Below are positions 16 to 25,479 of a stretch of DNA of 64,000 nucleotides, in pieces. The stretch comes from Leucobacter chromiisoli. Lineage in GTDB: Bacteria > Actinomycetota > Actinomycetes > Actinomycetales > Microbacteriaceae. The stretch lies in assembly GCF_016522505.1 (NCBI RefSeq), contig NZ_JAEHOH010000001.1, positions 310,001 to 374,000 on the forward strand. Direction: 5' to 3'. Positions within the stretch are counted from its first letter, which is position 1; the number at the start of each line of letters is the position of its first letter. The notes beneath the pieces are model-generated. The model made no database searches. It was not told the DNA's origin and saw nothing but the letters and a program-made list of their open reading frames with translations. Position numbers and translations under genes: made by a program.

Positions 16-1128
16 ATGCCAGTTGATTTCATCCCCCCTGCGAAGCCGATCATCGGTGACGAAGAGCGCGAGGCCGTCGATCGGGTGCTGCGATCGGGGA
101 TGATCGCGCAGGGTCCGGAGGTCGCCGCGTTCGAGCAGGAGTTCGCGGAGCACTTCGTGGGCGGGCGTGCCACGGTAGCCGTGAACTCGGGTACGAGCGG
201 GCAGCACCTCGGGCTCCTCGCGGCTGGCGTCGGGCCGGGTGACGAAGTGATCGTGCCGTCGTTCACGTTCGCGGCGACGGGCAACTCGGTGGCGCTGACG
301 GGTGCGACTCCGGTGTTCGTGGACATCGAGCCCGACTACTTCACGCTGGATCCTGCGGCGGTGCGTGCGGCGATCACGCCGAAGACGAAGGGCATCATGC
401 CGGTGCACCTCTACGGTCACCCGTTCCTGGTCGATGAGATCGAGGCGATTGCGAAGGAGCACGGTCTCGGGATCTACGAGGACGCGGCGCAGGCCCACGG
501 GGCGAGCTGGGACGGCCGGCAGGTGGGCACGATCGGCGACTTCGCGATGTTCAGCCTCTACCCGACGAAGAACATGACGTCGGGCGAGGGGGGCATGGTC
601 TCGTGCGCGAACGATGAGATCGCGCGGAACGTGCGGCTGCTGCGCAACCAGGGCATGGAGACGCAGTACGCCAACGAGGTGGTGGGTTTCAACGCCCGTA
701 TGACCGATGTGCACGCGGCGATCGGTCGTGTGCAGCTCACCAGGGTCGATGGGTGGACGGTGCAGCGTCAGCGGAACGCGGCGGCTCTGAACGAGGGGCT
801 CGCCGGGGTGCCGGGCGTGCAGACCCCGGGGGTTGCAGAGGGGGCGGTGCACGTCTATCACCAGTACACGGTCCGCCTCGATGCGGGTGAGCGGGATCGG
901 ATCCGCGAGGCGTTGAAGGAGGAGCACGGGGTGGGGTCCGGTGTCTATTACCCGATCCCGAACCATCGACTGCCCTCACTCGCGGAGTTCGCTCCGGGTC
1001 TGGATCTTCCCGAGACCGAGCGTGCGGCGCGCGAGGTGCTGTCGTTGCCGGTGCATCCGTCACTCAGCGAGGGGGATCTCGACCGCATCGTCGCAGCGGT
1101 GGCCGATGTCGTGCGCGCCGGCGCGTGA
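16..1128 (+). CDS. DegT/DnrJ/EryC1/StrS-family sugar aminotransferase
   Basis: PLP-dependent aminotransferase of the family that turns a keto-sugar nucleotide into an amino-sugar nucleotide for surface glycans. The 370-residue length is normal for the family. The PLP-site stretch SLYPTKNMTSGEGG contains the likely Schiff-base lysine K185, followed by a glycine-rich segment, and an EDAAQAHG motif at about residues 155-162 holds the cofactor-contacting aspartate. The start ATG follows GGGACCGAGG. The next gene, a glycosyltransferase, begins 19 bases after the stop, so the two are probably one operon whose upstream part lies outside the window. The substrate cannot be read from sequence; 3- or 4-keto UDP or dTDP sugars are the usual ones. 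Confidence 0.9.
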   Translation: MPVDFIPPAKPIIGDEEREAVDRVLRSGMIAQGPEVAAFEQEFAEHFVGGRATVAVNSGTSGQHLGLLAAGVGPGDEVIVPSFTFAATGNSVALTGATPVFVDIEPDYFTLDPAAVRAAITPKTKGIMPVHLYGHPFLVDEIEAIAKEHGLGIYEDAAQAHGASWDGRQVGTIGDFAMFSLYPTKNMTSGEGGMVSCANDEIARNVRLLRNQGMETQYANEVVGFNARMTDVHAAIGRVQLTRVDGWTVQRQRNAAALNEGLAGVPGVQTPGVAEGAVHVYHQYTVRLDAGERDRIREALKEEHGVGSGVYYPIPNHRLPSLAEFAPGLDLPETERAAREVLSLPVHPSLSEGDLDRIVAAVADVVRAGA

Positions 1129-1147
1129 TCCGGGGAACCGCAGCAGC

Positions 1148-2308
1148 GTGAGAGTCGCGATCGCGAGCCGCATCTTCGAGCCCGAGCCGAGTGCGGCGTC
1201 GTTCAGACTCGCGGCGCTCGCGAATGCCTTCTCCGAGGCGGGCCACGAGGTCTCGGTGCTCACGGTCAGGCCGGTGCGATCTCAGCGGGACGACTCCGAC
1301 CGCAACCGACGCTACCGAGTTCGGAGATTCCCGGTGCTCAGGGACCGTACCGGGTACGTTCGCGGCTACCTGCAGTACATGAGTTTCGATGTTCCGCTAT
1401 TCTTCCGCGTGCTGTTCGGCCCGAAGCGCGACCTCGTCGTCGTCGAGCCTCCTCCGACGACCGGGTTCTTCGTGAGGCTCGCGACGGCGCTCAGGCGCAC
1501 TCCCTACGCCTACTACGCAGCCGACGTCTGGTCCGACGCCGCAGCCTCGACGGGGGCAGGCGGAGCGGTCGTAACCGTCGTGCGGAGTATGGAGCGGTTC
1601 GCTCTCTCAGGTGCTCGCGGTGTTCTCTCGGTCAATGCCGGAGTGAGCGAGCGCGTGCGGGAGCTGGCTCCTGGGAGCCGTATCCACACCGTCGGCAACG
1701 GCATCGACACGAAGGTGTTCACGGTCGACGGGCCGCGTCATCAGGGCGGCGCCTACGCGATCTATTCGGGCACCGCCTCCGAGTGGCAGGGGGCGGGGGT
1801 CTTCATCGATGCGCTCGAGCGCGTGCTCGATGAGCACCCCGGAGCGAAGCTCGTCTTTCTCGGGCAGGGCAGCGACTGGCCGGAACTCCAAGCCAGGGCC
1901 GCCCGGTTACCTGCAGGAGCAGTGGAGTTCGTGCCCACGGTACCGCCCGCGACGGCAGCCGAATGGATCCGCGGGGCCGTCGTGAGCCTCGCCTCGATCC
2001 GCCCCGACTCCGGGTACGACTTCGCGTTTCCTACGAAGGTCTACGCCTCGCTCGCGTGCGGAACACCCGTCGTCTATGCGGGTGCGGGCGCGGTGCCCGA
2101 GTTCCTTCGCACTCATCAGAAAGATGCGCGTGTCGGTGAGAGCGTGGGATACGAGGTGGACACGGTGGCGAAGGCGCTATCTCGAGCCTTCGCCAATCCG
2201 CCAAGCCGCACGGAACGAGAACGCCTCGGTGTCTGGGTGGCCGAGCGTGTGGGCCTCGACGCTGCTGCGCGGAATGCCGTGCGGGCGCTCGAAGGACACC
2301 CTCAATGA
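1148..2308 (+). CDS. Glycosyltransferase family 4 (WbuB-like)
   Basis: GT-B-fold transferase of 386 residues that probably adds one sugar to the lipid-linked repeat unit at the inner face of the membrane. The N-terminal Rossmann domain begins RVAIASRIFEPEPSAASFR, the pattern of WbuB-like enzymes. The C-terminal nucleotide-sugar domain contains YSGTASEWQG and the FAFPTKVYASLACGTPVVY segment that contacts the donor. The frame stays open well upstream, inside the aminotransferase, but the GTG at 1148 is chosen because it gives the canonical N-terminus, lies just after that gene and has GGGGAA upstream. Donor and acceptor are unknown. Confidence 0.85.
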   Translation: MRVAIASRIFEPEPSAASFRLAALANAFSEAGHEVSVLTVRPVRSQRDDSDRNRRYRVRRFPVLRDRTGYVRGYLQYMSFDVPLFFRVLFGPKRDLVVVEPPPTTGFFVRLATALRRTPYAYYAADVWSDAAASTGAGGAVVTVVRSMERFALSGARGVLSVNAGVSERVRELAPGSRIHTVGNGIDTKVFTVDGPRHQGGAYAIYSGTASEWQGAGVFIDALERVLDEHPGAKLVFLGQGSDWPELQARAARLPAGAVEFVPTVPPATAAEWIRGAVVSLASIRPDSGYDFAFPTKVYASLACGTPVVYAGAGAVPEFLRTHQKDARVGESVGYEVDTVAKALSRAFANPPSRTERERLGVWVAERVGLDAAARNAVRALEGHPQ

Positions 2309-2437: not shown

Positions 2438-4243
2438 ATGAGGAACGGGTGGAAGCAACTCCGGGAACTGCTCCCGTATCTGCCGCCGGCGGCCAAGAAC
2501 TACATCCGGTTCTACATCACGATCGCGTGCCTGCTCTCAGTGCTCGACGTCGCCGCTCTGATGCTGCTGGCGCTCTCGCTCTCCTCGATGATGCAGGGTG
2601 TGTCGGTGGACCTTCCCGTGATCGGAGAGATTCCCCCCGATCGCTATGTGTGGCTGTTGCTCGGGGTCTCAGTGCTGGTGCTGCTGAAATCCTTCCTCTC
2701 GTTGCTGCAGAACTGGTTGGCGACTCGCCGATTCGCGGAGTACGAGCTGACCCTCGGGCTGCGTCTGTTCGACGCCTACATCAAGGCTCCGTGGGTGGAC
2801 CGTCTGAGCCGCACGACCTCGCAGCTGGTGCGCATGGCCGATGTCGGAGTGGCCGCGGCGGTCGGAGGCCTGATCCTGCCACTGATGCAGATCCCCGCGA
2901 TGCTCGCCTCCGCGGTGTTGATCCTCGGCACGCTCGTGGTCATCCAGCCGGGCACGGCGTTAGTGGTCGTGGTGTACTTTGGTCTGATCGCCTGGTTGAT
3001 GGCGCGGGTGCTCACCAAGCGCGCGGTCGAGGCGGGCCGGGTGAACCGCGACTATAGCTTCAAAGTCGCGTCTCTGATGACCGACATGGTCGGCGCGCTC
3101 AAAGAGGTCACGCTGCGAGACAAGCTCGACGAGGTGGCCGAGGTGGTCAAGTCGAACCGCAGCCACGCCGCCCGCGCCCGCGCGAACATCCAGTTCCTCG
3201 CGACCGTGCCTCGGTTCATCATGGACAGCGCGCTGATCGGGGGGTTCCTGTTCGTGGGGGTGCTGTCGTTCCTGATCGAGGGGAGCATGCAGGCGGCGAT
3301 ATTCTCCATCGTGCTGTTCGCCGTCGCCGGAATGCGTCTGGTTCCGGCGATGACGACGTTCCAGTCGACGAACAACACGCTGAGCGCCAACCGAGCCCAG
3401 GTGGATGCCGTCATCACCGACATCCACGCGGCCGAGAAGTACCGGGCCGCGACCGAGCAGATCGGGAAGGAGCCGCTGCGCGAGGAGCCGCGCAGAATCT
3501 CGCTCGAGGGGGTCACTTTCCAGTATCCCACAGGGGACCACCCGGCCGTACGCGACGTCTCGCTCGATATCAGGATGGGCAGCAGCGTCGGCTTCGTCGG
3601 CGAGTCGGGCTCGGGTAAGAGCACGCTCGTCGACATCCTGCTGGGCCTGTTGGAGCCCCAGGGCGGGGTGATCCGTGTGGACTCGCAGGATCTCACCGAC
3701 GTGATGGCGGCGTGGCGGAGCCGGGTGGGCTACGTGCCGCAGGACGTGTCGCTCTTCGATGGCACCATCGCTCAGAACGTCGCGCTGTCCTGGAAGGGCG
3801 ACCTCGACACGGAGAAGGTCATCGAGTGCCTGAAGAAGGCCCAGCTGTGGGACGTGGTCCAGGCGCGGCCCGGCGGCCTGAACGCGCGCGTGGGCGAGCG
3901 CGGCATGGCGTTCAGCGGTGGTCAGCGGCAGCGCCTCGGCATCGCCCGTGCGCTCTATACTGATCCGTACGTGCTCATCCTGGATGAGGCCACCTCGGCG
4001 CTGGACACGAAGACCGAGGCCCGAGTTGGTGAAGCGGTCCAAGGGCTTCGAGGTGAGGTCACGCTGATCTCTGTCGCGCACCGCTTGTCCACGGTCAAGG
4101 ACGTCGATGAGTTGTTCTACATGGAGGCCGGCCAGGTGATCGCCCGCGGCACGTTCAGCGAGGTCGTCGACACCGTGCCGAAGTTCCTGGAGCAGGCCCG
4201 CTTGGCGGGCCTGGTGGAGGCCCGCGAGGACGGCGAGTTCTAG
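2438..4243 (+). CDS. ABC transporter with fused membrane and ATPase domains, probable lipid-linked glycan flippase
   Basis: MsbA/PglK-type half-transporter of 601 residues. The first 320 or so residues hold about six hydrophobic segments (TM1 near residues 25-50, TM2 near 70-95). The ATPase half has Walker A GESGSGKST at about residue 389, a Q-loop in GYVPQDVSLF, the signature FSGGQRQR and Walker B VLILDEATSALD, so every catalytic motif is intact. AGGAGAAGGAG precedes the ATG. It sits between glycosyltransferase genes and no Wzx-type flippase is visible in the window. This supports, by inference, a role in flipping the lipid-linked oligosaccharide as PglK does. A general lipid or drug exporter cannot be excluded. 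Confidence 0.87.
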   Translation: MRNGWKQLRELLPYLPPAAKNYIRFYITIACLLSVLDVAALMLLALSLSSMMQGVSVDLPVIGEIPPDRYVWLLLGVSVLVLLKSFLSLLQNWLATRRFAEYELTLGLRLFDAYIKAPWVDRLSRTTSQLVRMADVGVAAAVGGLILPLMQIPAMLASAVLILGTLVVIQPGTALVVVVYFGLIAWLMARVLTKRAVEAGRVNRDYSFKVASLMTDMVGALKEVTLRDKLDEVAEVVKSNRSHAARARANIQFLATVPRFIMDSALIGGFLFVGVLSFLIEGSMQAAIFSIVLFAVAGMRLVPAMTTFQSTNNTLSANRAQVDAVITDIHAAEKYRAATEQIGKEPLREEPRRISLEGVTFQYPTGDHPAVRDVSLDIRMGSSVGFVGESGSGKSTLVDILLGLLEPQGGVIRVDSQDLTDVMAAWRSRVGYVPQDVSLFDGTIAQNVALSWKGDLDTEKVIECLKKAQLWDVVQARPGGLNARVGERGMAFSGGQRQRLGIARALYTDPYVLILDEATSALDTKTEARVGEAVQGLRGEVTLISVAHRLSTVKDVDELFYMEAGQVIARGTFSEVVDTVPKFLEQARLAGLVEAREDGEF

Positions 4244-4260
4244 CTTGGTAGACTGATCCG

Positions 4261-5385
4261 GTGACCAAGCCGACTCTGCTGATCTTGTCGTTTTCCCAAC
4301 TCTATCGAGACGCAAGAGTCCTGAAGCAGGTGAACCTCTTCAAAGACCGCTATCGAGTCGTCACGTGCTCCTACGGGCCGGCGCCCGAGGGCATCGCGGA
4401 GCACATACAGGTTCCCGACTCCGAGTCGATCTCCTACATGAACGGCCGGCTCATCACGCTCAAGATGTACCGGAAGGTGTACTGGGGCACCCCCGCGATC
4501 GCCTGGGCGAAGGAGAAGCTCAAGGGCCGCGCGTTCGACGTCATCCTGGCGAATGACTTCGAGGCGGTTCCGCTCGCCGTGGCGCTGGGGCCGTCTCTCG
4601 GCGTGCACGCCGACCTGCACGAGTACTCGCCGAGCCAGTTCGAGCACAATCCCGACTGGGCGCGCAGAATCCGCCCCTATCGCGAGTGGGTGTGCAAGAA
4701 GTACGTCTCCCGGGCCGATTCCTGGACGACCGTGTGCCAAGGGCTGTCGGACAAGTACTTCGACATGTTCGGCTTCCGCTCCGAGGTCGTCACGAACGCG
4801 GCCCCGTATGCGGCGTTGGCTCCGACCCCGGTTCATGACCCGATCAAGATCGTGCACCACGGAGGAGCCTCGGCGTTCCGCGGCATCGATCGGATGGTCG
4901 AGGCGGTCATGGCGTCCTCCCGCGACCTCCGGTTCGATCTCTATCTGCAGGACGTGGGCGGGTCGGTCATCGAAGCCCTTCGCGAGCTCTCGAAGGACGA
5001 TCCCCGGATCACCGTTCATGATGCCGTGCCCTACGCCGAGCTGATCCCGCTGCTCAACCAGTACGACGTCGGGATCTACTCGCTCCCTCCCGTCTCCTTC
5101 AACCACCTTCACGCACTGCCCAACAAGCTCTTCGACTACGCGCAGGCACGGGTCGGGATCATCGTCGGCCCCAGCCCCGAGATGGCGCGGGTCGTCGAGC
5201 AGAACCTCCTCGGCGAAGTGCTGCCCGATTTCGATGGTTCCTCGCTGACGCACGCGATCGACGCCCTGGATCCTGAACGGATCGCCGAGTGGAAGAAGAA
5301 CGCCGACGCGGCCGCGCGGGCTCTCAGCGCGGAGGCGCAGAACGCCGGCTGGGAGCGGCCGATCGATGCCCTGTTCGCACGGTAG
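4261..5385 (+). CDS. Glycosyltransferase, GT4-like (DARVLKQV family, single domain)
   Basis: Predicted GT-B glycosyltransferase of 374 residues. The N-terminal half has LLILSFSQLYRDARVLKQV and a YRVVTCSYGPAPEGIAEHI stretch. The C-terminal half has the likely donor-binding segment LPNKLFDYAQARVGII, then GPSPEM. The same motifs recur inside the two fused transferases immediately downstream, so this is the free-standing member of a local paralogue set. The GTG start has no Shine-Dalgarno sequence. Instead TAGACT at 4249-4254 ends six bases before it, so the mRNA may be leaderless and the gene may have its own promoter 17 bases after the ABC transporter stop. Sugar specificity is unknown. Confidence 0.85.
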   Translation: MTKPTLLILSFSQLYRDARVLKQVNLFKDRYRVVTCSYGPAPEGIAEHIQVPDSESISYMNGRLITLKMYRKVYWGTPAIAWAKEKLKGRAFDVILANDFEAVPLAVALGPSLGVHADLHEYSPSQFEHNPDWARRIRPYREWVCKKYVSRADSWTTVCQGLSDKYFDMFGFRSEVVTNAAPYAALAPTPVHDPIKIVHHGGASAFRGIDRMVEAVMASSRDLRFDLYLQDVGGSVIEALRELSKDDPRITVHDAVPYAELIPLLNQYDVGIYSLPPVSFNHLHALPNKLFDYAQARVGIIVGPSPEMARVVEQNLLGEVLPDFDGSSLTHAIDALDPERIAEWKKNADAAARALSAEAQNAGWERPIDALFAR

Positions 5386-5427
5386 TCCATGCGGGCGAGG
5401 GATCGTCGTACGAGGAGGGGAACCAGC

Positions 5428-8400
5428 GTGAGGAGCGAGATCGTCGTCCCCGTCCACGATCGGACCAGGCCCATCGGCCGTGCGGTCGAGTCGGTGCTGA
5501 CCGACCCGGAGTCGGGCGTCATCGTCGTGGCCCACAACGTCGACCCGGCCGAACTGGAGATCCCGGACGACCCTCGCGTGAAGACGCTGCACCTGGAGGG
5601 GCACGTCGGCCTCCCGGGAGCGGCGTTCGACCGGGGCATCGCCGCCGCGACGGCGGACTGGGTCGGCATCATGGGGTCGGACGACTGGTTCGAGGCCGGA
5701 GCACTGCGCTCCCTCCGCGCGCACGGCGAGGCCGACGGCGCCGATGGCGTCCTCGCGCCTCTCGCGTACCAGGGGGCCGGGCGGGGTTTCACTCCTCGGA
5801 CCCTGCGCCACCGTCGCCTCCGGGCCGCGCGGGATCGTCTCTTCTACCGCACGGCGCCGCTCGGTCTCTTCCGCCGAGCGATCCTGCAGGATCCCGTCTA
5901 CGCCTTCGGTAGCGACTTCCCGGTCGGAGAGGATCTGGCGGTGAGCACCAGGCTCTGGACCTCCGGACTCTCCCTCTCGTACTACCCGGACGCGCCGGCG
6001 TACGTCGTCGGCTCCGACGCGAAGCAGCGGACGACACTCTCCTCGCGCCCCCTCTCCGAGCACGGCGCGGCGTGGCTCGATATCTGGGACAGACCCTGGG
6101 TCGTGGCCCTCGACGGGCGTACCCGCCACGCGCTCGCGGTCAAGATCCTCCGCGCGCACGTCTGGGGAGCCGTCGCCGCCCGTCCGGAGCCCACCGACTG
6201 GAACGACGGCGACTTCGAGTGGTTGTCGTCGCTGGTGAGGAGGATCCTCGTCGAGGATCCGCGGGCGCTGGCGCCTCTGCGACGTGGCAGTGCGAGGACG
6301 CTGCAGGCGGTTGCGAGCGGGAACCGCCCGGACGCCCTCGCCGCGTACGCCGCGGAGAAGTCCTCGGGCATCGGCGACGCTCTGCGCACTCACGACCCCC
6401 GGGCCGTGCTGGAGCGGGAGGCCCCGCTGCGGTGGAACGCGGTCGGACTCGGCAACACCTTCCGCAGCCGAGCAGGGCGGTTCACCCGCCGGCCCGGATC
6501 GCCGGCCGCGGCAACGGGAGTCCGCGGGTCGAGCGAGGATCGGAGGCCGACCGTTCTGGTCTTCTCGTTCTCGCCCATCGTGGGCGACGCCCGCGTGCTC
6601 AAGCAGGTGAACCTGCTCCGGGGCGAGTACCGGGTCGTGACCTGCGGTTTCGGCGATGCTCCCCACGGGGTGGCCGAGCACATCGAGCTGCCGGCGACGC
6701 TCCTGCCCACGGCCCTGGACGGCCGGCTCATCACGCTGCGCGCCTACACCGCCGCCTACTGGCGGGTTCCGGCCATCGCCCGAGCCTGGCGCACCCTGCG
6801 GGGCAGGGAGTTCGACGCGATCCTCGCCAACGACATCGAGACGGTTCCGATCGCTCTGCGCCTGAAGCCGGCGCACGGGGTGCACGCGGACCTGCACGAG
6901 CACTACCCGAGCATGCACGAGTACAACGAGGCGTGGAAGCGGCGGATCAGCCCCTACCTCTCCTGGCTGTGCGCCCGGTACGCCACACGCGCGAGGTCGA
7001 CGACGACGGTGAGCGCCGGTTTGCAGCGGGCGTATGAGGAGCAGTTCGGCTTCACGCCGGAGGTGGTTCCCAACGCTACGCCCTACGCCGAGTTGGAGCC
7101 CGCGCCCGTCGGCGATCCGATCCGGCTCGTCCACTCCGGGGCCGGCCTGCGGAATCGACGGCTCGAGGTGATGCTCGATGCGGTCCGGGAGTCGCGGGCT
7201 GAGATCACGTTCGACCTGTATCTCACGTTGAACGACCCCGCCTATCTCGAGGAGCTTCGAAGCCGATACGCCGACGAGCCGAGGATCACGTTCCACGACC
7301 CCGTGCCGTACGCAGAGCTGGTCGCCACGCTGAGCGACTACGACGTGGGAGTGTTCGTGCTGCCGCCGACGACCTTCTCGTACGAGTGGGCCCTGCCCAA
7401 CAAGCTCTTCGATTTCGTCCAGGCCCGGCTGGGCGTCCTCATCGGTCCGTCCCCCGAGATGGCCGCCCTGGTCCGCGAGACCGGCAACGGGGAGATCGCC
7501 CCGACGTTCGAGGCCGAGGGACTGCGCGAGCGGATCGAGGCCCTCACTCCCGAAGCCGTCGCCCGCTGGAAGCGCGCATCCAACGAGTCTGCTGTCGGCC
7601 TTTCCGCGGAGCAGCAGTCGCAGGCCTGGCTGACGGCGATCGAGGGACTGTTCGACGGCCGGGAGCGCGGGGGCCGGTCGATGTCGGTCGAAGTGAGCGC
7701 GGGGAGCGAACAGTCCTACCTGGCGCTGCTCTCGGGGAGGTTTCCTGAGATGACGGGTGACTACTCGTTCATCAGACACGAGATAGACGAGCTCGCATCG
7801 CGCTTCGACCATGTCCTGGTCTACAGTTTCCGACCGCTCGACGGGCCGGCGGCCGAGCTGCCTCCGAACGTGCGGTACGCCGGGGCTCTGAGCACCTCGC
7901 CGAAGTTCAATGGCCCGATCGCACTGCTGCGCCCATCGCGTATGCGGGCCGCACTCCGGTCGGTGATGCGCGAGGCGCGCAGCGGGCGCATGCGAGGCCA
8001 CATCCCGCTGGTGCTCGGCAACATCCTCACGGGTGAGCGGTTCGCACTGGCCGTCGAACGCGGGCTGCGCCGCGCCGGAGCCACTCGGGGCAGCCAGGTC
8101 AGCGTGTACTCGTTCTGGGGATCCCACGGCGCCCTGGCGCTCCCGTTCCTCTCTGAGCGCTTCCGCCGTGTCGTTCGGCTGCACCGCTTCGACCTGTATG
8201 AGGGCGTCGGTGGGCGCCTTCCGCTGCGGGCCTCCATCTTCGGCTCCGTCGACGCTCTGCTATCCATCTCGGAGGACGGCCGGCGGCACCTCGACGAGCG
8301 CTTCGGCTCCCTGATTCCCGCGGGCGCCCTCTCGGTGCTGCGCCTGGGCACGGCCGACCACGGGCTCGGTCCGGAACCGGCGCCGATCGCCGAGCGGGGT

Positions 8401-8964
8401 GAGCAGGAGCCGATCCGAGTGGTGTCTTGCTCGTCGGTGATCGACGTGAAGCGAGTGGACTCGCTCATCCCCGCCCTGGAACTGCTCGCTGGCGAGCATG
8501 CGGTGCACTGGACCCATTTCGGTTCGGGGGAGGGCATGTCTGAGCTCGTCGCCGCGACCCTTGCGGCGCGGGCGCGGACACCGGGGCTGGAGATCGACCT
8601 CCGCGGGCAGACGGAGAACAGCGGCGTCCTCGAGCACTATCGGAACACTCCCGTCGATGCGTTCGTCAACGTCAGCGATTCGGAGGGAGTGCCCGTCTCG
8701 ATCATGGAGGCGCTGTCGTTCGGCATCCCCGCGGTGGCGACCGACGTCGGCGGCACGGGGGAGATCGTCGGCGCCCAGCTCGGGTCGGGCGTGCTGCTGC
8801 CGCCCCGGCCGGACGCAGCCCGGCTCGCCGACGCGCTTCTGACCGTCGTCCGGGATCGCGTATCGCTGGACCCGCGGGCCGTCTGGGAGCGGCTCTCCGA
8901 TGCGCGGGTGTCGGCGGCCGGGATCGCCGACCTGCTGACACCGAGGCACGACGGATCTCGGTGA
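5428..8964 (+). CDS. Tri-domain fused glycosyltransferase (GT2 - GT4-like - GT4)
   Basis: A 1178-residue protein with three transferase modules in one uninterrupted frame. Residues 1 to about 367 are a GT2-type domain with VPVHDRTRPIGRAVESV and the metal-site-like MGSDDWFEAGAL. Residues about 373-746 are a GT4-like domain with DARVLKQVNLL and PNKLFDFVQARLG, close to the preceding gene. Residues about 752-1178 are a more distant GT4 domain with SVIDVKRVDSL and the donor-site stretch VSDSEGVPVSIMEALSFG. The frame opens at ATG 5389, but GTG 5428 is preferred because AGGAGGGG lies 7 bases upstream and the GT2 strand starts directly after it. An internal ATG at 7681 begins module three, yet no stop precedes it, so a true fusion is most likely. 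It would add two or three successive sugars. Confidence 0.82.
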   Translation: MRSEIVVPVHDRTRPIGRAVESVLTDPESGVIVVAHNVDPAELEIPDDPRVKTLHLEGHVGLPGAAFDRGIAAATADWVGIMGSDDWFEAGALRSLRAHGEADGADGVLAPLAYQGAGRGFTPRTLRHRRLRAARDRLFYRTAPLGLFRRAILQDPVYAFGSDFPVGEDLAVSTRLWTSGLSLSYYPDAPAYVVGSDAKQRTTLSSRPLSEHGAAWLDIWDRPWVVALDGRTRHALAVKILRAHVWGAVAARPEPTDWNDGDFEWLSSLVRRILVEDPRALAPLRRGSARTLQAVASGNRPDALAAYAAEKSSGIGDALRTHDPRAVLEREAPLRWNAVGLGNTFRSRAGRFTRRPGSPAAATGVRGSSEDRRPTVLVFSFSPIVGDARVLKQVNLLRGEYRVVTCGFGDAPHGVAEHIELPATLLPTALDGRLITLRAYTAAYWRVPAIARAWRTLRGREFDAILANDIETVPIALRLKPAHGVHADLHEHYPSMHEYNEAWKRRISPYLSWLCARYATRARSTTTVSAGLQRAYEEQFGFTPEVVPNATPYAELEPAPVGDPIRLVHSGAGLRNRRLEVMLDAVRESRAEITFDLYLTLNDPAYLEELRSRYADEPRITFHDPVPYAELVATLSDYDVGVFVLPPTTFSYEWALPNKLFDFVQARLGVLIGPSPEMAALVRETGNGEIAPTFEAEGLRERIEALTPEAVARWKRASNESAVGLSAEQQSQAWLTAIEGLFDGRERGGRSMSVEVSAGSEQSYLALLSGRFPEMTGDYSFIRHEIDELASRFDHVLVYSFRPLDGPAAELPPNVRYAGALSTSPKFNGPIALLRPSRMRAALRSVMREARSGRMRGHIPLVLGNILTGERFALAVERGLRRAGATRGSQVSVYSFWGSHGALALPFLSERFRRVVRLHRFDLYEGVGGRLPLRASIFGSVDALLSISEDGRRHLDERFGSLIPAGALSVLRLGTADHGLGPEPAPIAERGEQEPIRVVSCSSVIDVKRVDSLIPALELLAGEHAVHWTHFGSGEGMSELVAATLAARARTPGLEIDLRGQTENSGVLEHYRNTPVDAFVNVSDSEGVPVSIMEALSFGIPAVATDVGGTGEIVGAQLGSGVLLPPRPDAARLADALLTVVRDRVSLDPRAVWERLSDARVSAAGIADLLTPRHDGSR

Positions 8965-9040
8965 GCGCCGCCGCTGGTATCGTTTGCCTATCGAGGCACC
9001 CCCACACCGCGATTCCGGGTGCCCGAGGAAAGGTGGGGTC

Positions 9041-11245
9041 GTGCGGCGACTGCTGATCATCTCGTTCTCGAACATCACGCAGGATGCACGGGTCCTCAAG
9101 CAGGTCGACGAGTTCAGCTCCGATTGGGAGGTGTCCACTTGCAGTTACGGCCCGAAGCCCGACGGTTCCACCCACCACTACACGATCCCCGATGAGGCGA
9201 TCCACTGGGCCTACGACAGGAAAGATCTCATCCTGCGCCGCTACGAGCGCGCGTACTGGACGAACGCCGCCGTCGCGTCCGCGAAGGGGCTCCTCGAGGG
9301 CGGTACGTGGGACGTCGTCCTCGCGGACGACCTCGACACCGTCCCCCTGGCGCTCTCGCTCGACCCGGCGTTCGGGGTCCACGCCGACCTGCACGAGTAC
9401 GCCCCCCGTGAGAAGGAGGACCTGCTCCGCTGGCGGGTGTTCGTGGGACCGTTCAGGAGGTGGCTCTGCCGCGAGTACCTCCCCGGCTGCGCCTCGGTGA
9501 CGACGGTGGGCGCGGCCCTCGCGAGGGAGTACGAGCGAGAGTTCGGCGTCGAGGTGGGCGTCGTCATGAACGCCACCCCCTACGCCGATCTGCCGGTGAA
9601 CCCCGTGAGCAGGCCGATCCGGGTGGTGCACTCGGGCGCCGGGAGAAAGGGACGGGCTCTGGAGGTGATGCTCGAGGCCGCGACCCGGACGGGCGCCGAC
9701 ATCACGCTCGACATGTACCTCACCCCCAACGATCCCGGTTACGTGCAGCAGCTGCGGGAGCGCTTCGGCGACCACCCCAAGATCAACATCAACGATCCCG
9801 TGCCGTACACCGAGCTGATCGCGACGCTGAACCGGTACGACGTCGGCGTGTTCGTGCTTCCACCTCGGACCTTCTCGTACAGGTGGGCGCTGCCCAACAA
9901 GCTCTTCGACTTCGTCCAAGCTCGTCTGGGGATCATCATCGGCCCCTCGCCCGAGATGGCGGCGATCGTGAAGGAGCATCGGCTCGGAGCCGTCGCCGGT
10001 GGATTCGAGGCGCGGCATCTGGTCGAGGCCTTCGACCGCCTCACCCCCGGGGCGGTCGACTCCTGGAAGCGAAACAGCTCCCGCGTCGCCCTGGAGCTCT
10101 CGGCGGCGCCCCAGAATGCTCGCTGGAGGGAGGCCGTCGAGGCGATCGCGGTGAACGGACCTCGGCACGGGAAGACGCAGCCGGAGGCGCTCCCGGTCGA
10201 GATCGTCATCGCCTGCCACTCGCCGGAGCGTCGCATCGACCGCGCGGTCCGTTCCGTCGTCGTCGACAACGGCGATGTCGCGTCGGCCACCGTGGTGTGC
10301 CACAACGTCGACAGGGACGTCATCGCCGAGCGGGTCCCGGAGGGGATCCGAGGCCGGGTGAAGTTCATCGAGCTGCAGGACGGAGTCTCCTCGCCGACCG
10401 GCCCTTTCATGCACGGCCTCGGCCAGGCGACGGCGCCCTGGGCCGGCATCATGGGATCGGACGACTTCTACGAGCCGGGTGCGATCGCCGCGATGCTCGA
10501 GCTGGCCGAGGGCAGGGACGCCGTCATGCCCCGACTGCGACACGACAGCGGGAGTGCCGTGCGGACGCCCCCCGCCCGCCCGGGGCCCCGGGCCGTGCAG
10601 GACGCCGTGCGGGATCGGCTCTTCTACCGCAGCGCGCCGCTGGGGTTGCTCCGCAGGGGGGCCCTCGAGGAGTACGGTCTCGCCCTGGACGCCGGGTTCA
10701 AGGTGGGCGGGGATCTGCGCATGTCGACGCTGCTGTGGTCGCTCGGCTCGGTCGCCGTGCAGAGACGCGGGCCCCGGTACGTCGTGGGCAGCGACGCCGC
10801 CGATCGGGTCACGATGAGCCTCCCGCCGATTGCCGAGGAGATGCGTCACGTCGAGGCCGTGTGGGGGGAGGCGTGCCAATCGCGCCTCACCGACGCACAG
10901 CGTCAGGCGCTCGCGACGAAGTACCTGCGCATCCACATCTTCGGTGCCGCGTACTATCGGGGGGCCGAGGGCGCGTGGCTGCCCGGCGACCGGGAGGCCC
11001 TCGCTCGGGCCGCCTCACGTGTGCTCGAGGCCGCGCCTGCCGCGGCCGAGCCGCTGTCGCGCGCCGACCGCGATCTGCTGGACGCGATCCTCGACCTCTC
11101 CGTTCCCGACGCCGAGGTGGGCGCGCTCGCCGAGTCGAGAAGGAGGTTCGGGCGTCCGAACACCCTGATTCCCCGGTCGGCGAGGTATCTGCTGCATCGC
11201 GAAGCGCCGCCGAGATTCATGGCGGCCTCCGCTCTCGTCCGGTGA
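9041..11245 (+). CDS. Bi-domain fused glycosyltransferase (GT4-like - GT2)
   Basis: A 734-residue protein with the same two module types as the preceding gene in reverse order. Residues 1 to about 373 are the DARVLKQV-type GT4-like domain, ending in PNKLFDFVQARLGIIIGPSPEM. Residues about 385-734 are a GT2-type domain with IVIACHSPERRIDRAV and MGSDDFYEPGAI. Its C-terminal extension shares RDRLFYRSAPLGL, YVVGSDA and an alpha-helical tail with the N-terminal module of the tri-domain protein. The frame opens at TTG 8984, but GTG 9041 gives the canonical VRRLLIISFS start with GAGGAAAGG upstream and is preferred. A duplication followed by domain shuffling explains the pair. Substrates are unknown. 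Confidence 0.83.
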   Translation: MRRLLIISFSNITQDARVLKQVDEFSSDWEVSTCSYGPKPDGSTHHYTIPDEAIHWAYDRKDLILRRYERAYWTNAAVASAKGLLEGGTWDVVLADDLDTVPLALSLDPAFGVHADLHEYAPREKEDLLRWRVFVGPFRRWLCREYLPGCASVTTVGAALAREYEREFGVEVGVVMNATPYADLPVNPVSRPIRVVHSGAGRKGRALEVMLEAATRTGADITLDMYLTPNDPGYVQQLRERFGDHPKININDPVPYTELIATLNRYDVGVFVLPPRTFSYRWALPNKLFDFVQARLGIIIGPSPEMAAIVKEHRLGAVAGGFEARHLVEAFDRLTPGAVDSWKRNSSRVALELSAAPQNARWREAVEAIAVNGPRHGKTQPEALPVEIVIACHSPERRIDRAVRSVVVDNGDVASATVVCHNVDRDVIAERVPEGIRGRVKFIELQDGVSSPTGPFMHGLGQATAPWAGIMGSDDFYEPGAIAAMLELAEGRDAVMPRLRHDSGSAVRTPPARPGPRAVQDAVRDRLFYRSAPLGLLRRGALEEYGLALDAGFKVGGDLRMSTLLWSLGSVAVQRRGPRYVVGSDAADRVTMSLPPIAEEMRHVEAVWGEACQSRLTDAQRQALATKYLRIHIFGAAYYRGAEGAWLPGDREALARAASRVLEAAPAAAEPLSRADRDLLDAILDLSVPDAEVGALAESRRRFGRPNTLIPRSARYLLHREAPPRFMAASALVR

Positions 11246-11263: not shown

Positions 11264-12337
11264 CTACCGCGGCTTGACGCCCGCGATGATCGCCTCGACC
11301 GCGCGCTCGGCCGCTCGGCCGTCGCCGTACGGCGCCTCCTCGGTCGCAGCGGGCGCTGGCCGCGTGAGTGCCGCTGTGATCTCCTCCGAGGTGTTCGCGA
11401 GCACGTTCCAGCCGAGCTCGATCGTCTCGACCCACTCCGTCTCGCGCCGCACGGTGGTGCACGGCACCCGCAACAGGAATGCCTCCTTCTGCAGGCCGCC
11501 GGAGTCGGTCACGACGCCTGCGCTGCCGAGGGCCGCCGCGATCAGCTCGGGGTAGGCGAGCGGATCCCGGGTCACGAGCGAGCCGGCGTCGAGCGAGATC
11601 CCGTGCTCCTCGGCCTTCGCGCGCACGCGCGGGTGGGCGAGCAGCACCACCGGCCTGTCCGCGTCGCCGAGAGCCTGCACCACCTCGCGCAGCCGCTCGG
11701 GGTCATCGGTGTTCTCGGCTCGGTGGATCGTCGCCACGTAGTAGCCGTCCGGCGCATGGAGATCGGCGAGGGGGTTCTCCGTACCACCGGCGAGCACCGC
11801 GTCGCGGACCTGGAAGAGCACGTCGGTCATCACGTCTCCCACCAGGACGGAGCGTTCCGAGAGGCCCTCGGTGGCGAGGTGCCGCATCGCGACCTCGGTC
11901 GGTGCGAGGCACAGATCCGCCGCGTGATCGGTGAGCACGCGGTTGTGCTCCTCGGGCATCGCGCGGTTGAAGGAGCGGAGGCCCGCCTCGAGGTGGGCGA
12001 CGGGGAAGTGGAGCTTCACGGCGCTGACCGCGGCGGCGAGGGTCGAGTTCGTGTCGCCGTAGACGAGCACGCAGTCGGGCCAGAACCGCTCGAGCACCTC
12101 GTCCATCTGCGCCAGCATGGCGCCGGTCTGCACGCCGTGCGAGCCGGAGCCGACACCCAGGTGCGCGTCGGGCTCCGGAATGCCGAGATCCCGGAAGAAG
12201 ACGTCGGAGAGCATCGGATCGTAGTGCTGTCCCGTGTGCACGATGACGTGCTCGTGACCAGCGGCCTGCAGTGCGTGTGCGATGGGAGCCAGCTTGACGA
12301 ACTGCGGGCGCGCGCCCACGACGCTCATGATCTTCAT
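11264..12337 (-). CDS. wecB: UDP-N-acetylglucosamine 2-epimerase (non-hydrolysing)
   Basis: Converts UDP-GlcNAc to UDP-ManNAc in the cytoplasm. Recognisable motifs are SVVGARPQFVKLAP at the N-terminus, HTGQHYDPMLSD, the HLEAGLRSF segment, the MPEEHNRVLTDH active-site region and DSGGLQKEAF near the C-terminus. Its 357 residues match the family. The start is placed at ATG 12337 (MKIMSVVGARPQ) rather than further upstream, because TAGGAT at 12345-12350 sits 7 bases before it, the leaderless pattern seen elsewhere here. It is read against its neighbours, back to back with the glycosyltransferase at 12379, and its metabolic partner WecC is the next gene but one. The pair would supply UDP-ManNAcA. 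Confidence 0.93.
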   Translation of the reverse strand: MKIMSVVGARPQFVKLAPIAHALQAAGHEHVIVHTGQHYDPMLSDVFFRDLGIPEPDAHLGVGSGSHGVQTGAMLAQMDEVLERFWPDCVLVYGDTNSTLAAAVSAVKLHFPVAHLEAGLRSFNRAMPEEHNRVLTDHAADLCLAPTEVAMRHLATEGLSERSVLVGDVMTDVLFQVRDAVLAGGTENPLADLHAPDGYYVATIHRAENTDDPERLREVVQALGDADRPVVLLAHPRVRAKAEEHGISLDAGSLVTRDPLAYPELIAAALGSAGVVTDSGGLQKEAFLLRVPCTTVRRETEWVETIELGWNVLANTSEEITAALTRPAPAATEEAPYGDGRAAERAVEAIIAGVKPR

Positions 12338-12378
12338 ACGGAACATCCTACGGACAACGCCGAGTAGCATGGGGTCCC

Positions 12379-13503
12379 ATGCGCGTGCTGGTCGTCACCC
12401 CGTGGTTCCCGAGTGCGAAGGCTCCGGGGTCCGGGATCTTCAACCTCCGCGACGTCGAACTGCTCGCGCGGGATCACGAGGTGCGCGTGCTGCACCTCAT
12501 CGCGCCTCGTCTGCTCGCCGAGGGGGAGCCCGAGGAGGAGGCTCACGAGACGTTCTCGATCAGACGGGTGCCCTTCCACGCCTCGCGGCCGGCGACGCTG
12601 CTCTCCGCGGCGCGGGCGATCGGCACGGAACTGCGCGCGGCGGACCTGCTGCACACGATGGCGCAACCGGCGCTGATCCCGACCCGGTTGGTGCGCGTCC
12701 CGGTACCCTTCGTGCACACCGAGCACTTCTCGAGCCTGGTGACGCCCGATGCCTCCCGCGTTTCCGCGGTCGTCGGCTCGCTGCTGGCGACGCTGTTCCG
12801 CCGTCCGACCGAGGTGGTCGCGGTGAGCGGGCCCCTCGCCCGGGCGATCGACCGTCACCGCGGACGGCCCTGCACCGTCATCGGCAACCGGGTCATGCTG
12901 CCGGAGCGCGCGCCGACGGGAGGGGCACTCGAGCGCGGACGGCCGCTCAGCCTGATCGCGGTGGGCGGCGCCGTCGAGCGCAAGGGGCCCGTGCAGGCCG
13001 TCGAGACCATGATCGAGCTGCGCAGGCGCGGGATCGAGGCCTCGCTGACCTGGGTGGGCGAGGGGCCCCTGAGCGGCGAGATGCGGACCCGCGCGGAACG
13101 CGCGAACGTCGCCGAGCACTTTCATGACGCGGGATTCGCCGAGCCGTGGCGGCTGTCGCGGCTGCTGCTCGAGTCGGACCTCTTCCTGCTGCCGGTCGAG
13201 ACCGAGACCTTCGGCGTGGCGATCGCGGAAGCGCTGACGCACGGGCTTCCCGTCGTGGCGACCGGAACGGGGGGCCACGAGGAGTTCCTGCCGCCGAAGG
13301 CCTCGCGTCTGATCACCGAGCGCGAGCCGGGCCCCCTCGCAGATGCGGTGGAGGGCCTGCTCGACGACCCGACCCAATGGTCGCGCGCCGAGATCGCGGA
13401 ATACGCCCGGGCGCGGTTCTCGGAGACGGCGCGGCTCGAAGCCTACCGCGAGGTCTACCGGTCGGCGGCGGCGCGGAACGTGCGAGCTCCGCAGGAGGAA
13501 TAG
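12379..13503 (+). CDS. Glycosyltransferase family 4
   Basis: GT-B transferase of 374 residues. The N-terminal half starts MRVLVVTPWFPSAKAPGSG, with HTEHFSSLV in the acceptor domain. The C-terminal half has AVGGAVERKGPVQAVE, WVGEGPLSGEM and the donor-site motif ETETFGVAIAEALTHGLPVVAT, which carries the two glutamates typical of GT4. The gene ends 9 bases before wecC, so it is probably co-transcribed with it. It is therefore a candidate for the enzyme that uses UDP-ManNAcA or a sugar next to it in the repeat, which is inference from position only. TAGCAT lies 8 bases before the ATG and could be a promoter -10 box. Confidence 0.88.
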   Translation: MRVLVVTPWFPSAKAPGSGIFNLRDVELLARDHEVRVLHLIAPRLLAEGEPEEEAHETFSIRRVPFHASRPATLLSAARAIGTELRAADLLHTMAQPALIPTRLVRVPVPFVHTEHFSSLVTPDASRVSAVVGSLLATLFRRPTEVVAVSGPLARAIDRHRGRPCTVIGNRVMLPERAPTGGALERGRPLSLIAVGGAVERKGPVQAVETMIELRRRGIEASLTWVGEGPLSGEMRTRAERANVAEHFHDAGFAEPWRLSRLLLESDLFLLPVETETFGVAIAEALTHGLPVVATGTGGHEEFLPPKASRLITEREPGPLADAVEGLLDDPTQWSRAEIAEYARARFSETARLEAYREVYRSAAARNVRAPQEE

Positions 13504-13512
13504 ACTGTCACT

Positions 13513-14808
13513 GTGAAAATCGCAGTAGTCGCCACAGGCAAGATCGGCCTTCCGCTCGCCACTCAGTACGCGTCGATGGGCCACGAGGTCGTCGGCGTGG
13601 ATGTCAACCAGGCCCTGGTGGACTGCATCAACCGGGGCGAGGAGCCCTTCCCCGGTGAAGCGGGACTGGCCGAGAAGCTCGCCGAGCAGGTGCCGGCGGG
13701 CAGGCTCCGCGCCACGAGCGACTACGCGGACGCGATTCCCGGTGCCGACGCGGTGGTGCTCGTCGTGCCGCTGCTGGTGGACGAGGAGACCTGGCAGCCC
13801 GATTTCGGGTGGATGGATGCCGCGACGCGCTCGCTCGCGGAGCACCTGACCCCCGGCACGCTGGTCTCGTACGAGACCACGCTGCCCGTCGGTACGACCC
13901 GGGGACGCTGGAAGCCGCTGATCGAGGAGGTCTCGGGGCTCGTCGAGGGGGAGGACTTCCACCTGGTGTTCTCGCCCGAGCGCGTGCTCACGGGCCGCGT
14001 CTACGCCGACCTGAAGAAGTACCCCAAGCTCGTGGGGGGTCTGAACGAGGCCGGCACGAAGAAGGCGATCGAATTCTACGAGTCGGTGCTCACCTTCGAC
14101 GAGCGCGACGACCTGCCCCGTCCCAACGGAGTGTGGGACATGGGCACCGCCGAGGCCGCCGAGATGGCGAAGCTCGCCGAGACGACCTACCGCGACGTCA
14201 ACATCGGCCTCGCGAACCAGTTCGCGCGGTACGCCGATACGGCGGGCATCGACGTGTACAAGGTGATCGAGGCGTGCAACTCGCAGCCGTTCAGCCATAT
14301 CCATCGTCCGGGTATCGCCGTCGGCGGCCACTGCATCCCCGTCTACCCGCGGCTGTACCTGTCGACCGACCCCGACGCGGACATCGTTCGCACGGCGCGC
14401 AACTACAACGCGACGATGCCGACCTACGTCGTGGATCGCGTCGAGCAGACGATCGGTGATCTCTCCGGTGTGCGCGTCGTGGTGCTGGGAGCGTCGTATC
14501 GGGGCGGTGTGAAGGAGACCGCGGTGTCGGGTGTGTTCCCGACGGTGGAGGAGCTGGTCACGCGGGGCGCAGTGGTGACGGTGCACGATCCGGTGTTCTC
14601 GGACGAGGAGCTGGCCGGGTACGGTTTCACCGCTCACCGCATCGGGGATCCTGCGGATGTCGCGATCCTGCAGGCCGATCACGCCGAGTACCGTGATCTC
14701 GGCCCTGCTGACTTCCCGGGGATCAAGCTCTTCGCCGACGGCCGCAACTTCACGGATCCGTCGGCCTGGACGGGGGTGCCCCGCATCGTCATCGGTCTGG
14801 GAGGCTGA
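13513..14808 (+). CDS. wecC: Nucleotide-sugar dehydrogenase, probable UDP-N-acetyl-D-mannosamine dehydrogenase
   Basis: Oxidises C6 of a UDP-hexose with two NAD+. The 431 residues contain the dinucleotide-binding start KIAVVATGKIGLPLA, ETTLPVGTTRG, the FSPERVLTGR segment, the catalytic loop GGHCIPVYP with nucleophile C274, and the C-terminal GASYRGGVKETAVSG. UDP-ManNAc is the best guess because wecB lies nearby; UDP-Glc or UDP-GlcNAc dehydrogenase activity is possible. GTG 13513 lacks a Shine-Dalgarno sequence. TAGACT at 13501-13506, whose TAG is also the stop codon of the preceding gene, ends six bases before it, which suggests a promoter inside the gene junction and a leaderless transcript. 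Confidence 0.87.
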   Translation: MKIAVVATGKIGLPLATQYASMGHEVVGVDVNQALVDCINRGEEPFPGEAGLAEKLAEQVPAGRLRATSDYADAIPGADAVVLVVPLLVDEETWQPDFGWMDAATRSLAEHLTPGTLVSYETTLPVGTTRGRWKPLIEEVSGLVEGEDFHLVFSPERVLTGRVYADLKKYPKLVGGLNEAGTKKAIEFYESVLTFDERDDLPRPNGVWDMGTAEAAEMAKLAETTYRDVNIGLANQFARYADTAGIDVYKVIEACNSQPFSHIHRPGIAVGGHCIPVYPRLYLSTDPDADIVRTARNYNATMPTYVVDRVEQTIGDLSGVRVVVLGASYRGGVKETAVSGVFPTVEELVTRGAVVTVHDPVFSDEELAGYGFTAHRIGDPADVAILQADHAEYRDLGPADFPGIKLFADGRNFTDPSAWTGVPRIVIGLGG

Positions 14809-22290: not shown

Positions 22291-22386
22291 CGCAACCCCC
22301 TTCGGCGCGACACCGATCGAGTTTTTCCCGGCGCCTGGCATGGCATCAGGGCGATGGCAGCCCGCGGGCATAAGCTTGGGCCCGAT

Positions 22387-25300: not shown

Positions 25301-25479
25301 CCGGCCCCGAGAATCCCGGATCCGCGGATCCCGACCCCGAGAATCCCGGCGCCGACGCTCCCGGCGCGGCCGAGACCCTCTCGGGGGAGACCGACTCGGG
25401 CGTCGACGAACCCGCCCCCGACGGCGGGGCGGAGAACGGCGGGATCCATCCCGGGAACGCGAACGGAGGAACGCGATGA
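22387..25479 (+). CDS. Large membrane glycosyltransferase, GT2 domain plus polytopic domain
   Basis: A 1030-residue protein. Residues 1 to about 250 are a GT2 domain: TAVLVAHRGGEWLDQTI, a poorly conserved DXD region, GPKLVDW and YDDGLDLSVRARLAGY. After that come two helices near 260-290 and about ten hydrophobic segments from about 360 to 740, an extracytoplasmic part at 740-890, one more helix near 900-918, then a basic stretch PRRRKRPSRRR and a low-complexity Pro/Gly/Asp tail. The tail includes two copies of a 30-base unit at 25288-25347. The stop overlaps the DUF5719 gene by 4 bases, so the two are coupled. The start ATG 22387 gives the canonical MRTRVTAVLVAH and no strong Shine-Dalgarno sequence is visible. 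An envelope glycan role is likely; the substrate is unknown. Confidence 0.85.
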   Translation: MRTRVTAVLVAHRGGEWLDQTIAGIAAQTRRPERLLAVANGGSRDLTEQLRSAAPERIISVPDRVSFGRAVQHAVETMPRETGDTSETGSIVEEWIWLLTEDSCPEPEALERILSIVQRAPSVAIAGPKLVDWDRPERIIELGQSLTRYGSRWLLRRQELDQQQYDHMQDVLGVGPVGMLVRRDVWEQLGGFDPALPVYDDGLDLSVRARLAGYRVEVAPGSRVRFAQSGIAGPRVDRSRSVMRAAHRQGRASHLHRRIVYAPALFAFFMWLGLPLLGVARVFWSLIREQPGQMLGEFTSAMRVFFHPAAIIASRRRIRRHSSAGWAAIRPLRVDPKSVRTARMIDREAILAAQGRRAPEIHFISSGGLAVLIGAVVLAAALCWWTLAQTSLSGGALAPLSPIGELWMHTRTIDGVPADPFAWVLAVLGTLTFWNPSHAVVLLFVASIPLAALGGWIWAAQLTGSRAGRALLGLGWAISPVLLGSLDSGRLPTLILAVVLPWLLLAATRCRESWSWAGTASLLAAVALACAPVLIPAAVVLLIVGLFSSLRGVTRVLATAIAPAVLFAPKAVQLVLNGRALDLLLDPGITPDYQPGTAWHLLIGFPEFGLEGWAGILDALGLGGPPATLLVGVLLVPIALLGLLGLFTSRVPVTILNTLLGGLGMITALAASQLRLVTEGAVSVPLWTGSGLALFWIALLSLAAVGCSALRRATTPVAVTALLAAAIAVAPLGFQLATANTGLRPGAEQMPALVQAAGVSDPSLRTLVLSAEGEHAVRARLVSGTGLRLDQLRTAAKSTEPTEEDRWVADLVGGLASTTDADLTEELQERHVGFVLLTAEGDPGERAQLQSVFDQQRALTSAGQTEHGLLWRAEIADSGAAAEDTGARLAGTSLSSSTLWWAQLIVLLGIVLLALPTGEVVERPRRRKRPSRRRQRVPAAGAGSGGGIGGAGDSEVAGSDGPRSEDPGAADPGPENPGSADPDPENPGADAPGAAETLSGETDSGVDEPAPDGGAENGGIHPGNANGGTR

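Follow-up and report, generated by a model that had tools for sequence, protein, structure and literature searches.

Fused glycosyltransferases of Leucobacter chromiisoli and the probable joining of neighbouring genes in a recurring Micrococcales locus

Introduction

Proteins that carry several glycosyltransferase (GT) modules in one chain are described for the O-antigen pathways of Klebsiella, where the same catalytic work is done by single- or multi-module proteins (PMC11231755). In the portion of that account dealing with pathways dependent on an ATP-binding cassette (ABC) transporter, WbbB has three GT modules (GT99, GT102 and GT103), WbdA has two, and ORF6 of the K. pneumoniae O7 pathway is likewise multi-module. 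This article deals with a window of 64,000 nucleotides from the actinobacterium Leucobacter chromiisoli (contig NZ_JAEHOH010000001.1, positions 310,001 to 374,000), in which three consecutive genes encode GTs built from modules of families GT2 and GT4, either alone or fused. We consider it very probable that these genes belong to a recurring surface-glycan locus of the Micrococcales, whose packed GT genes have repeatedly fused with their direct neighbours.

How does this locus compare with the O-antigen systems? As far as these are covered in PMC11231755, the likeness lies in several GT modules per chain and in an ABC transporter within the pathway. The differences are that they are Gram-negative and possess a coiled-coil chain-length ruler with a terminator, a ruler that was not searched for in the Leucobacter locus. 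Unlike WbbB, the Leucobacter proteins combine GT2 and GT4 modules, come from Actinobacteria, and have beside them a transporter that is MsbA/PglK-like by its best matches. They are a further case of multi-module polysaccharide GTs, made of other modules and found in another phylum; among the papers listed by searches of the open-access literature, none described GT2/GT4 fusions from loci of this type.

A second comparison is offered by Micrococcus luteus, which we take to belong to the same bacterial order as Leucobacter. Its teichuronic acid is described as a polymer of N-acetylmannosaminuronic acid (ManNAcA) and glucose (PMC3005890), and ManNAcA is a sugar that WecB and a WecC-like enzyme, both predicted from the Leucobacter locus, could supply. 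In the synthetase described there, transferases of two kinds act jointly in a single complex, which resembles the fusions; unlike the fusions, the glucosyl- and ManNAcA-transferases are two kinds of subunit in an octamer, and the likeness is drawn from the described enzyme (PMC3005890).

Three consecutive genes and their modules

The three frames, of 374, 1178 and 734 amino acids (aa), contain no internal stops. Their modules, named here after family and copy, are as follows.

4261..5385, + strand: P0001, stand-alone GT4a, 374 aa (Pfam, BLASTP)
5428..8964, + strand: P0002, three-module GT2-1 / GT4a-1 / GT4c, 1178 aa (Pfam, module profiles, predicted structure)
5428..6471, + strand: GT2-1 module of P0002, with GSDD and RDRLFYR-TAPLGL (profile match 14-362 of the frame starting at 5386)
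6547..7662, + strand: GT4a-1 module of P0002 (profile match 388-759 of the frame starting at 5386)
7640..7700, + strand: GT4a-1/GT4c junction, open only in the window genome (DNA comparison with G049, a sister species)
7693..8961, + strand: GT4c module of P0002, a canonical GT4 (PF13692 at residues 998-1143)
9041..11245, + strand: P0003, two-module GT4a-2 / GT2-2, 734 aa (Pfam, profiles, full-length match in G049)
9044..10159, + strand: GT4a-2 module of P0003 (profile match 36-407 of the frame starting at 8939)
10187..11242, + strand: GT2-2 module of P0003 (profile match 417-768 of the frame starting at 8939)

A first-pass annotation of the window had read three GT4-like modules, two GT2 modules and one further GT4 module from these genes, and coordinates, BLASTP and, in part, Pfam agree with it. 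P0001 (residues 3-372) is 51% identical to residues 373-742 of P0002 and 45% identical to residues 4-369 of P0003, and the two fused GT4a modules share 51% identity; at E 0.001 no fourth GT4a turns up in the genome that contains the window (3.35 Mb, 42 contigs). The two GT2 modules (residues 4-338 of P0002 and 387-728 of P0003) are 38% identical with an E-value near 1e-43, far above chance. Both retain GSDD, an acidic motif of the type that binds metal in GT2 enzymes of the GT-A fold. The motifs of the first-pass annotation are present, except that the GT2 motif it gave as RDRLFYR-SAPLGL has that form only in P0003 and reads RDRLFYR-TAPLGL in P0002.

The module-wise Pfam search is uneven. PF00535 (GT2) is matched above its gathering score of 23.3 by the N-terminus of P0002 (44.2 bits) and by P0003 (29.6 bits), and GT4a-1 passes PF13439 at residues 416-550 (40.3 bits). 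The GT4a of P0001 stays below gathering scores, and P0003 has no GT4 match at E 1. The third domain of P0002 matches PF13692 and PF00534 above their gathering scores, and the more distant GT4 domain proposed at first pass is a canonical GT4. That annotation also knew of no named family with this architecture, which holds for the exact arrangement in Pfam and NCBIfam; the combination of two or three GT modules in one protein is nevertheless of a known kind (PMC11231755).

By eye, a Shine-Dalgarno-like AGGAGGGG stands just 5' of the GTG at 5428, and a similar AGGAAAGG just 5' of the GTG at 9041. On the other strand, an open frame of 1314 aa (4240-8184, -) spans the fused genes; it is probably an artefact of high G+C content, because the + strand genes show the normal codon-position G+C pattern.

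Conservation of the two-module fusions in a sister species

P0002 and P0003 each hold two or more GT modules in a single open frame, and the two-module forms occur in a second species as well. The sister genome G049 holds both, at 81% identity to full-length P0003 and 72% identity to residues 1-777 of P0002. Between the window and G049 the modules have nonsynonymous rates (dN) of 0.09-0.20 and synonymous rates (dS) of 0.88-1.14; the two linkers have dN of 0.67 and 0.79 with the frame kept. By this comparison every fused module is under purifying selection. At a dS near 1, the junctions near 6540 and 10170 are in frame in G049, so that two of the three junctions at which hidden stop codons had been feared are borne out. 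Because the sister species has both, the two-module fusions are, on comparative grounds, real and maintained.

Could the fused modules be decaying or redundant copies with no catalytic role of their own? No stand-alone GT4a counterpart was found in G049, and that copy at least can therefore be dispensed with. Against decay, dN lies well under dS in every fused module, GSDD persists in both GT2 modules, and the GT2 and GT4a folds are confidently predicted (see below); we regard such a loss of function as very unlikely.

The third junction, near 7680, is absent in G049, where a TAG ends GT4a and GT4c is a separate gene in another frame. In the window five consecutive G (GGGGG) adjoin the join, and GT4c could have a separate start at an internal ATG at 7681 (Met752). 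No match across the GT4a/GT4c junction was found in other genomes, comprising 54 of the genus (E 1e-60), 396 of the order (E 1e-90) and 394 of the class (E 1e-100), sets that overlap and of which the order and class searches scored two candidates per genome. The three-module protein is thus seen in the window genome only. All this would fit a sequencing or assembly error, or else two proteins with GT4c starting at ATG 7681 as in G049. Yet the frame is open in the assembly, other fusions have similar linkers, and in Microbacterium aoyamense (L060) and M. flavescens (L062) the two genes that meet here overlap as separate genes. An artefact or a split product is a real possibility that we take seriously, though on balance we doubt it.

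A recurring locus with fused and separate neighbours

To place the three genes among their relatives, loci were annotated with profiles built for the modules and for adjacent genes. The sample comprises 79 loci from the best 80 of at least 542 confirmed relatives, together with 40 further stretches, among them L034 from directly upstream of the window, and is biased toward close relatives; removal of eight duplicates (L073, L086, L090, L092, L098, L110, L111 and L116) left 111 loci for the counts. Position labels refer to the nearest detected modules among eight profiles, not to every gene. The set that recurs consists of the transferase GT4d, the ABC transporter, GT2-1, GT4a-1, in some loci GT4c, GT4a-2, WecB, the transferase GT4b, GT2-2 and WecC. 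It is present in Agromyces, Microbacterium, Oerskovia, Cellulosimicrobium, Ornithinimicrobium, Serinicoccus, Brachybacterium, a metagenome-assembled genome (MAG) of the Actinomycetaceae and others, with order and strand differing in detail between loci and with many loci lacking some of the genes. A contig filed under an Acidobacteria MAG (L064) carries an Ornithinimicrobium-type version of the locus and is probably misbinned.

In these relatives the modules are mostly separate genes that abut or overlap. M. aoyamense and M. flavescens have GT2, GT4a, GT4c and GT4a as four separate genes in the module order of the window; between the GT2 stop and the start of the GT4a match lie 8 bases, while the GT4c match overlaps the end of GT4a by 19 bases. 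Separate-gene homologues of GT4c are 38-42% identical in L060, L062, L070, L087 and L133, and 74% in G049. Across the 111 loci, fused and separate adjacent pairs number 8 and 14 for GT2>GT4a, 6 and 22 for GT4b>GT2, 2 and 14 for GT4a>GT2, and 1 and 3 for GT4a>GT4c; therefore, each of these pair types also exists as separate neighbours. Homologues that are always separate genes, which the first-pass annotation would have taken as a refutation, are not what is seen: they are mostly, yet not always, separate. Among 109 close separate gene pairs, in a tally summed by hand with duplicate loci included, 80 share the offset of an ATGA overlap, 24 show the alternative offset and 5 have no frame shift between them.

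Other fusions involve other partners. Microbacterium gallinarum encodes a different three-module transferase, GT2-GT2-GT4a (L133:12208-15672, the same as L073), on the strand opposite its ABC, GT4c and second GT4a genes, the latter two being separate. GT4b-GT2 fusions, in which a module of the GT2-2 type has a GT4 partner unlike that of the window, occur at L036:7034-9217 (same family) and in L068, L075, L083, L104 and L134. On quick trees fused and single forms of GT2 alternate, with at least 7 changes between the two states (17 of 103 rows fused); L059 and L081 are there set to single, and leaving them as fused gives 9 changes with 19 of 103 rows fused. For GT4a the fewest changes are 3 (10 of 107 rows fused).

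Several candidates were rejected. Frames of about 1000 aa in other Leucobacter (L043-L046 and L048) seem to join GT4a to an upstream domain; they were not accepted as fusions because the codon-position G+C pattern reverses close to where GT4a starts, no Pfam match falls in the upstream part and the ABC gene occupies it in another frame. Apparent GT2-GT2 pairs in L059 and L081, GT4d-GT4d pairs in L045 and L089, and a GT4a-GT4a pair in L045 are single domains split by the search. Matches in a plasmid collection were limited to 6 records, whose single matching pieces cover 11-31% of P0002 at <40% identity.

Separate ancestry of the two GT2 and the two fused GT4a modules

The first-pass annotation had explained the opposite domain orders by duplication plus order swap within one locus: a two-module ancestor would have been duplicated and its domains exchanged, giving GT2-GT4a and GT4a-GT2. 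The modules are indeed homologous, 38-51% identical, and lie in consecutive genes. Quick trees (103 GT2 rows and 107 GT4a rows, matches under 240 bits for GT2 and 440 bits for GT4a being excluded) and careful trees (47 of the 103 and 46 of the 107 rows, from hand-chosen loci) argue otherwise.

GT2-1 of P0002 falls in a quick-tree clade of 30 rows (support 86), 23 of which follow the ABC gene. GT2-2 of P0003 falls in another of 62 rows (support 97), where 26 follow GT4b and 15 follow GT4a (41/62). Seen from the positions, the ABC gene is followed by 27 GT2s, 23 of them in the GT2-1 clade, and GT4b is followed by 26, all in the GT2-2 clade. The careful tree retains the GT2-2 clade (23 rows, 99/99), the remainder being partly unresolved. 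Forcing the GT2 modules of the window and G049 into one clade costs 181 log-likelihood units (approximately unbiased test, p = 1.5e-8).

Both trees put GT4a-1 and GT4a-2 in separate clades; in the quick one the first has 42 rows with a support of 99 and the second 25 rows with a support of 95. The careful tree gives a GT4a-2 clade of 25 rows (95/100) and a remainder partly unresolved. Clade and position agree less well here: 23 of the 42 rows of the first clade come after GT2, and 12 of the 25 of the second after GT4a or GT4c. Forcing both fused GT4a modules and their G049 copies together, a four-row test added once the trees had been viewed, costs 84 units (p = 5e-12); adding the stand-alone copy, so that all three GT4a of the window are joined, costs 114 units (p = 1.5e-4). 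On the quick tree the stand-alone GT4a sits in the GT4a-2 clade beside the ABC-adjacent GT4a of the Actinomycetaceae MAG (94).

Outside G049, the closest relatives of the modules belong to other genera, and several are single genes similarly positioned: M. gallinarum for GT2-1 and GT4a-1, the Actinomycetaceae MAG for GT2-2, and Agromyces and others for GT4a-2. Most other Leucobacter GT4a copies group apart. These relationships suggest that the locus may have spread by horizontal transfer. On the trees, the two GT2 modules, like the two fused GT4a modules, come from separate old lineages that usually occupy different positions. With the one-clade tests rejecting a common origin within the locus, and with other genomes such as L060 holding the same modules as separate neighbours in the same order, duplication and swap is extremely improbable as long as the trees are not badly misled.

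Predicted structure and fold relatives

The model of P0002 was built on 28 aligned sequences and reaches a mean predicted local distance difference test (pLDDT) of 75 and a predicted template-modelling score (pTM) of 0.44. The GT2 and GT4a domains are confident, and the linkers at 354-369 and 747-760 have low confidence. GT4c is poorly predicted because too few aligned relatives were available; in the first folding alignment lone GT4c rows, at 19-20% identity, were probably placed on GT4a, and four such rows were dropped. The assignment of GT4c rests on Pfam, not on the model, and with so low a pTM the modelled arrangement of the domains says nothing firm.

The best sequence relatives of the GT2 module among solved structures are TarP and TarS of Staphylococcus aureus, GT2 enzymes of wall teichoic acid (phmmer E 3e-4 and 6e-3). 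Among the best 50 of 377 fold matches of the P0002 model at E 0.001, TarP and TarS, chains of GT2 length, have target-normalised template-modelling (TM) scores of 0.64-0.75 and are about 14-16% identical in the fold alignments; the GT-A fold of the GT2 module of P0002 is read from these matches. HepE of Anabaena, WaaG of Pseudomonas and BshA, GT4 enzymes of the GT-B fold, give TM scores of about 0.65-0.75 at about 9-15% identity, with chains of single-module length; the matches are listed without their range in the model, so the assignment of each to a module is ours. Unlike the Leucobacter GT2 modules, TarP and TarS are not fused to GT4 modules, and the acceptor probably differs. The first row of the fold search is the capsule multienzyme 8qoy, with an overall TM of only 0.2, and a sequence search of the PDB with the GT4a profile gave nothing at E 0.01.

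Neighbouring genes

The remaining genes of the locus in the window are given below.

941..2308, + strand: GT4d, GT4-type glycosyltransferase heading the locus (PF13692/PF13579 above cutoff; upstream of the ABC gene in many annotated loci)
2438..4243, + strand: MsbA/PglK-type ABC transporter, transmembrane and nucleotide-binding domains in one chain (Pfam ABC_tran above cutoff, ABC_membrane below)
11264..12370, - strand: WecB, UDP-N-acetylglucosamine 2-epimerase (NCBIfam TIGR00236 wecB, 261.9 bits against a cutoff of 210.15)
12379..13503, + strand: GT4b, GT4-type glycosyltransferase (Pfam, module profiles)
13513..14808, + strand: WecC-like nucleotide-sugar dehydrogenase (NCBIfam TIGR03026 above cutoff)

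A DegT aminotransferase gene precedes the locus; the start codon of GT4d is uncertain, and use of 941 makes it overlap with the DegT gene. The best NCBIfam matches of the transporter are of the NHLM, MsbA and PglK types, all under equivalog cutoffs, and it is a probable flippase of a lipid-linked glycan. Relatives of GT4b are the ones fused to GT2-2 in the six other loci named above. Downstream follow a DUF2142 membrane protein, a further GT2, an epimerase (GalE-like by manual reading) and a Wzy_C-type ligase.

Two other features were seen. At 22354-25479 (+) a frame of 1041 aa has an N-terminal GT2 domain, and a second long frame (24996-26864) overlaps it. Just upstream of the window, L034:862-16692 holds a second polysaccharide gene group, with an ABC-2 type membrane protein, two GT2s, a GT4, a nucleotide-sugar dehydratase-like gene and a large LGFP-repeat protein.

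Proposed origin and function of the fusions

The scheme that we favour starts from tightly packed GT genes, which often share a few bases with the next gene, and from their repeated fusion with direct neighbours; a short insertion or deletion close to a stop codon would suffice for such a join. GT2-1 with GT4a-1, and GT4a-2 with GT2-2, would in this manner have become the two-module proteins common to the sister species, and the next gene, GT4c, would have come into frame in the window genome as well. Each module probably adds one sugar to a lipid-linked glycan that the ABC transporter would flip. Because WecB and a WecC-like enzyme are encoded in the locus, and given the ManNAcA-glucose polymer of M. 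luteus, this glycan probably contains N-acetylmannosamine (ManNAc) or ManNAcA. The fusions hint that the fused partners act on consecutive steps, and multi-step enzymes are a plausible reading of the modules.

Several points weigh against this account. The three-module join is known from one draft genome of 42 contigs, where a one-base error would instead leave two overlapping genes. The match of lineage to position is partial: 7 of the 30 rows of the GT2-1 clade do not come after the ABC gene, 21 of the 62 in the GT2-2 clade have neither GT4b nor GT4a before them, and agreement is lower again for the GT4a clades. The stand-alone GT4a falls outside the GT4a-2 clade in the careful tree, the bootstrap there being not settled, and the change counts cannot tell gain of fusion from its loss. 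As to the product, the WecC-like dehydrogenase passes only the general NDP-sugar dehydrogenase model, the UDP-ManNAc dehydrogenase models being below cutoff.

A bolder reading takes the fusion graph, with a second GT2, GT2-1, GT4a-1 and GT4c on one side and GT4a-2, GT2-2 and GT4b on the other, as the order of sugar addition, and the 1178-aa protein as an enzyme that truly performs three steps and makes three linkages in succession. We think this rather unlikely. If it were true, natural fusions would read out the assembly order of an uncharacterised wall polymer of the Micrococcales. Beyond the points below, the locus illustrates ordinary polysaccharide-locus evolution, in which fusion is real but of a fairly ordinary kind.

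Under the favoured account of repeated neighbour fusion, no domain swap is needed to produce opposite domain orders, and the repeated fusion of the same neighbouring GT genes is natural evidence for enzymes acting together. An uncharacterised glycan locus of many Micrococcales may in this way be given a testable assembly scheme, in which the steps of GT2-1, GT4a-1 and GT4c are set against those of GT4a-2, GT2-2 and GT4b.

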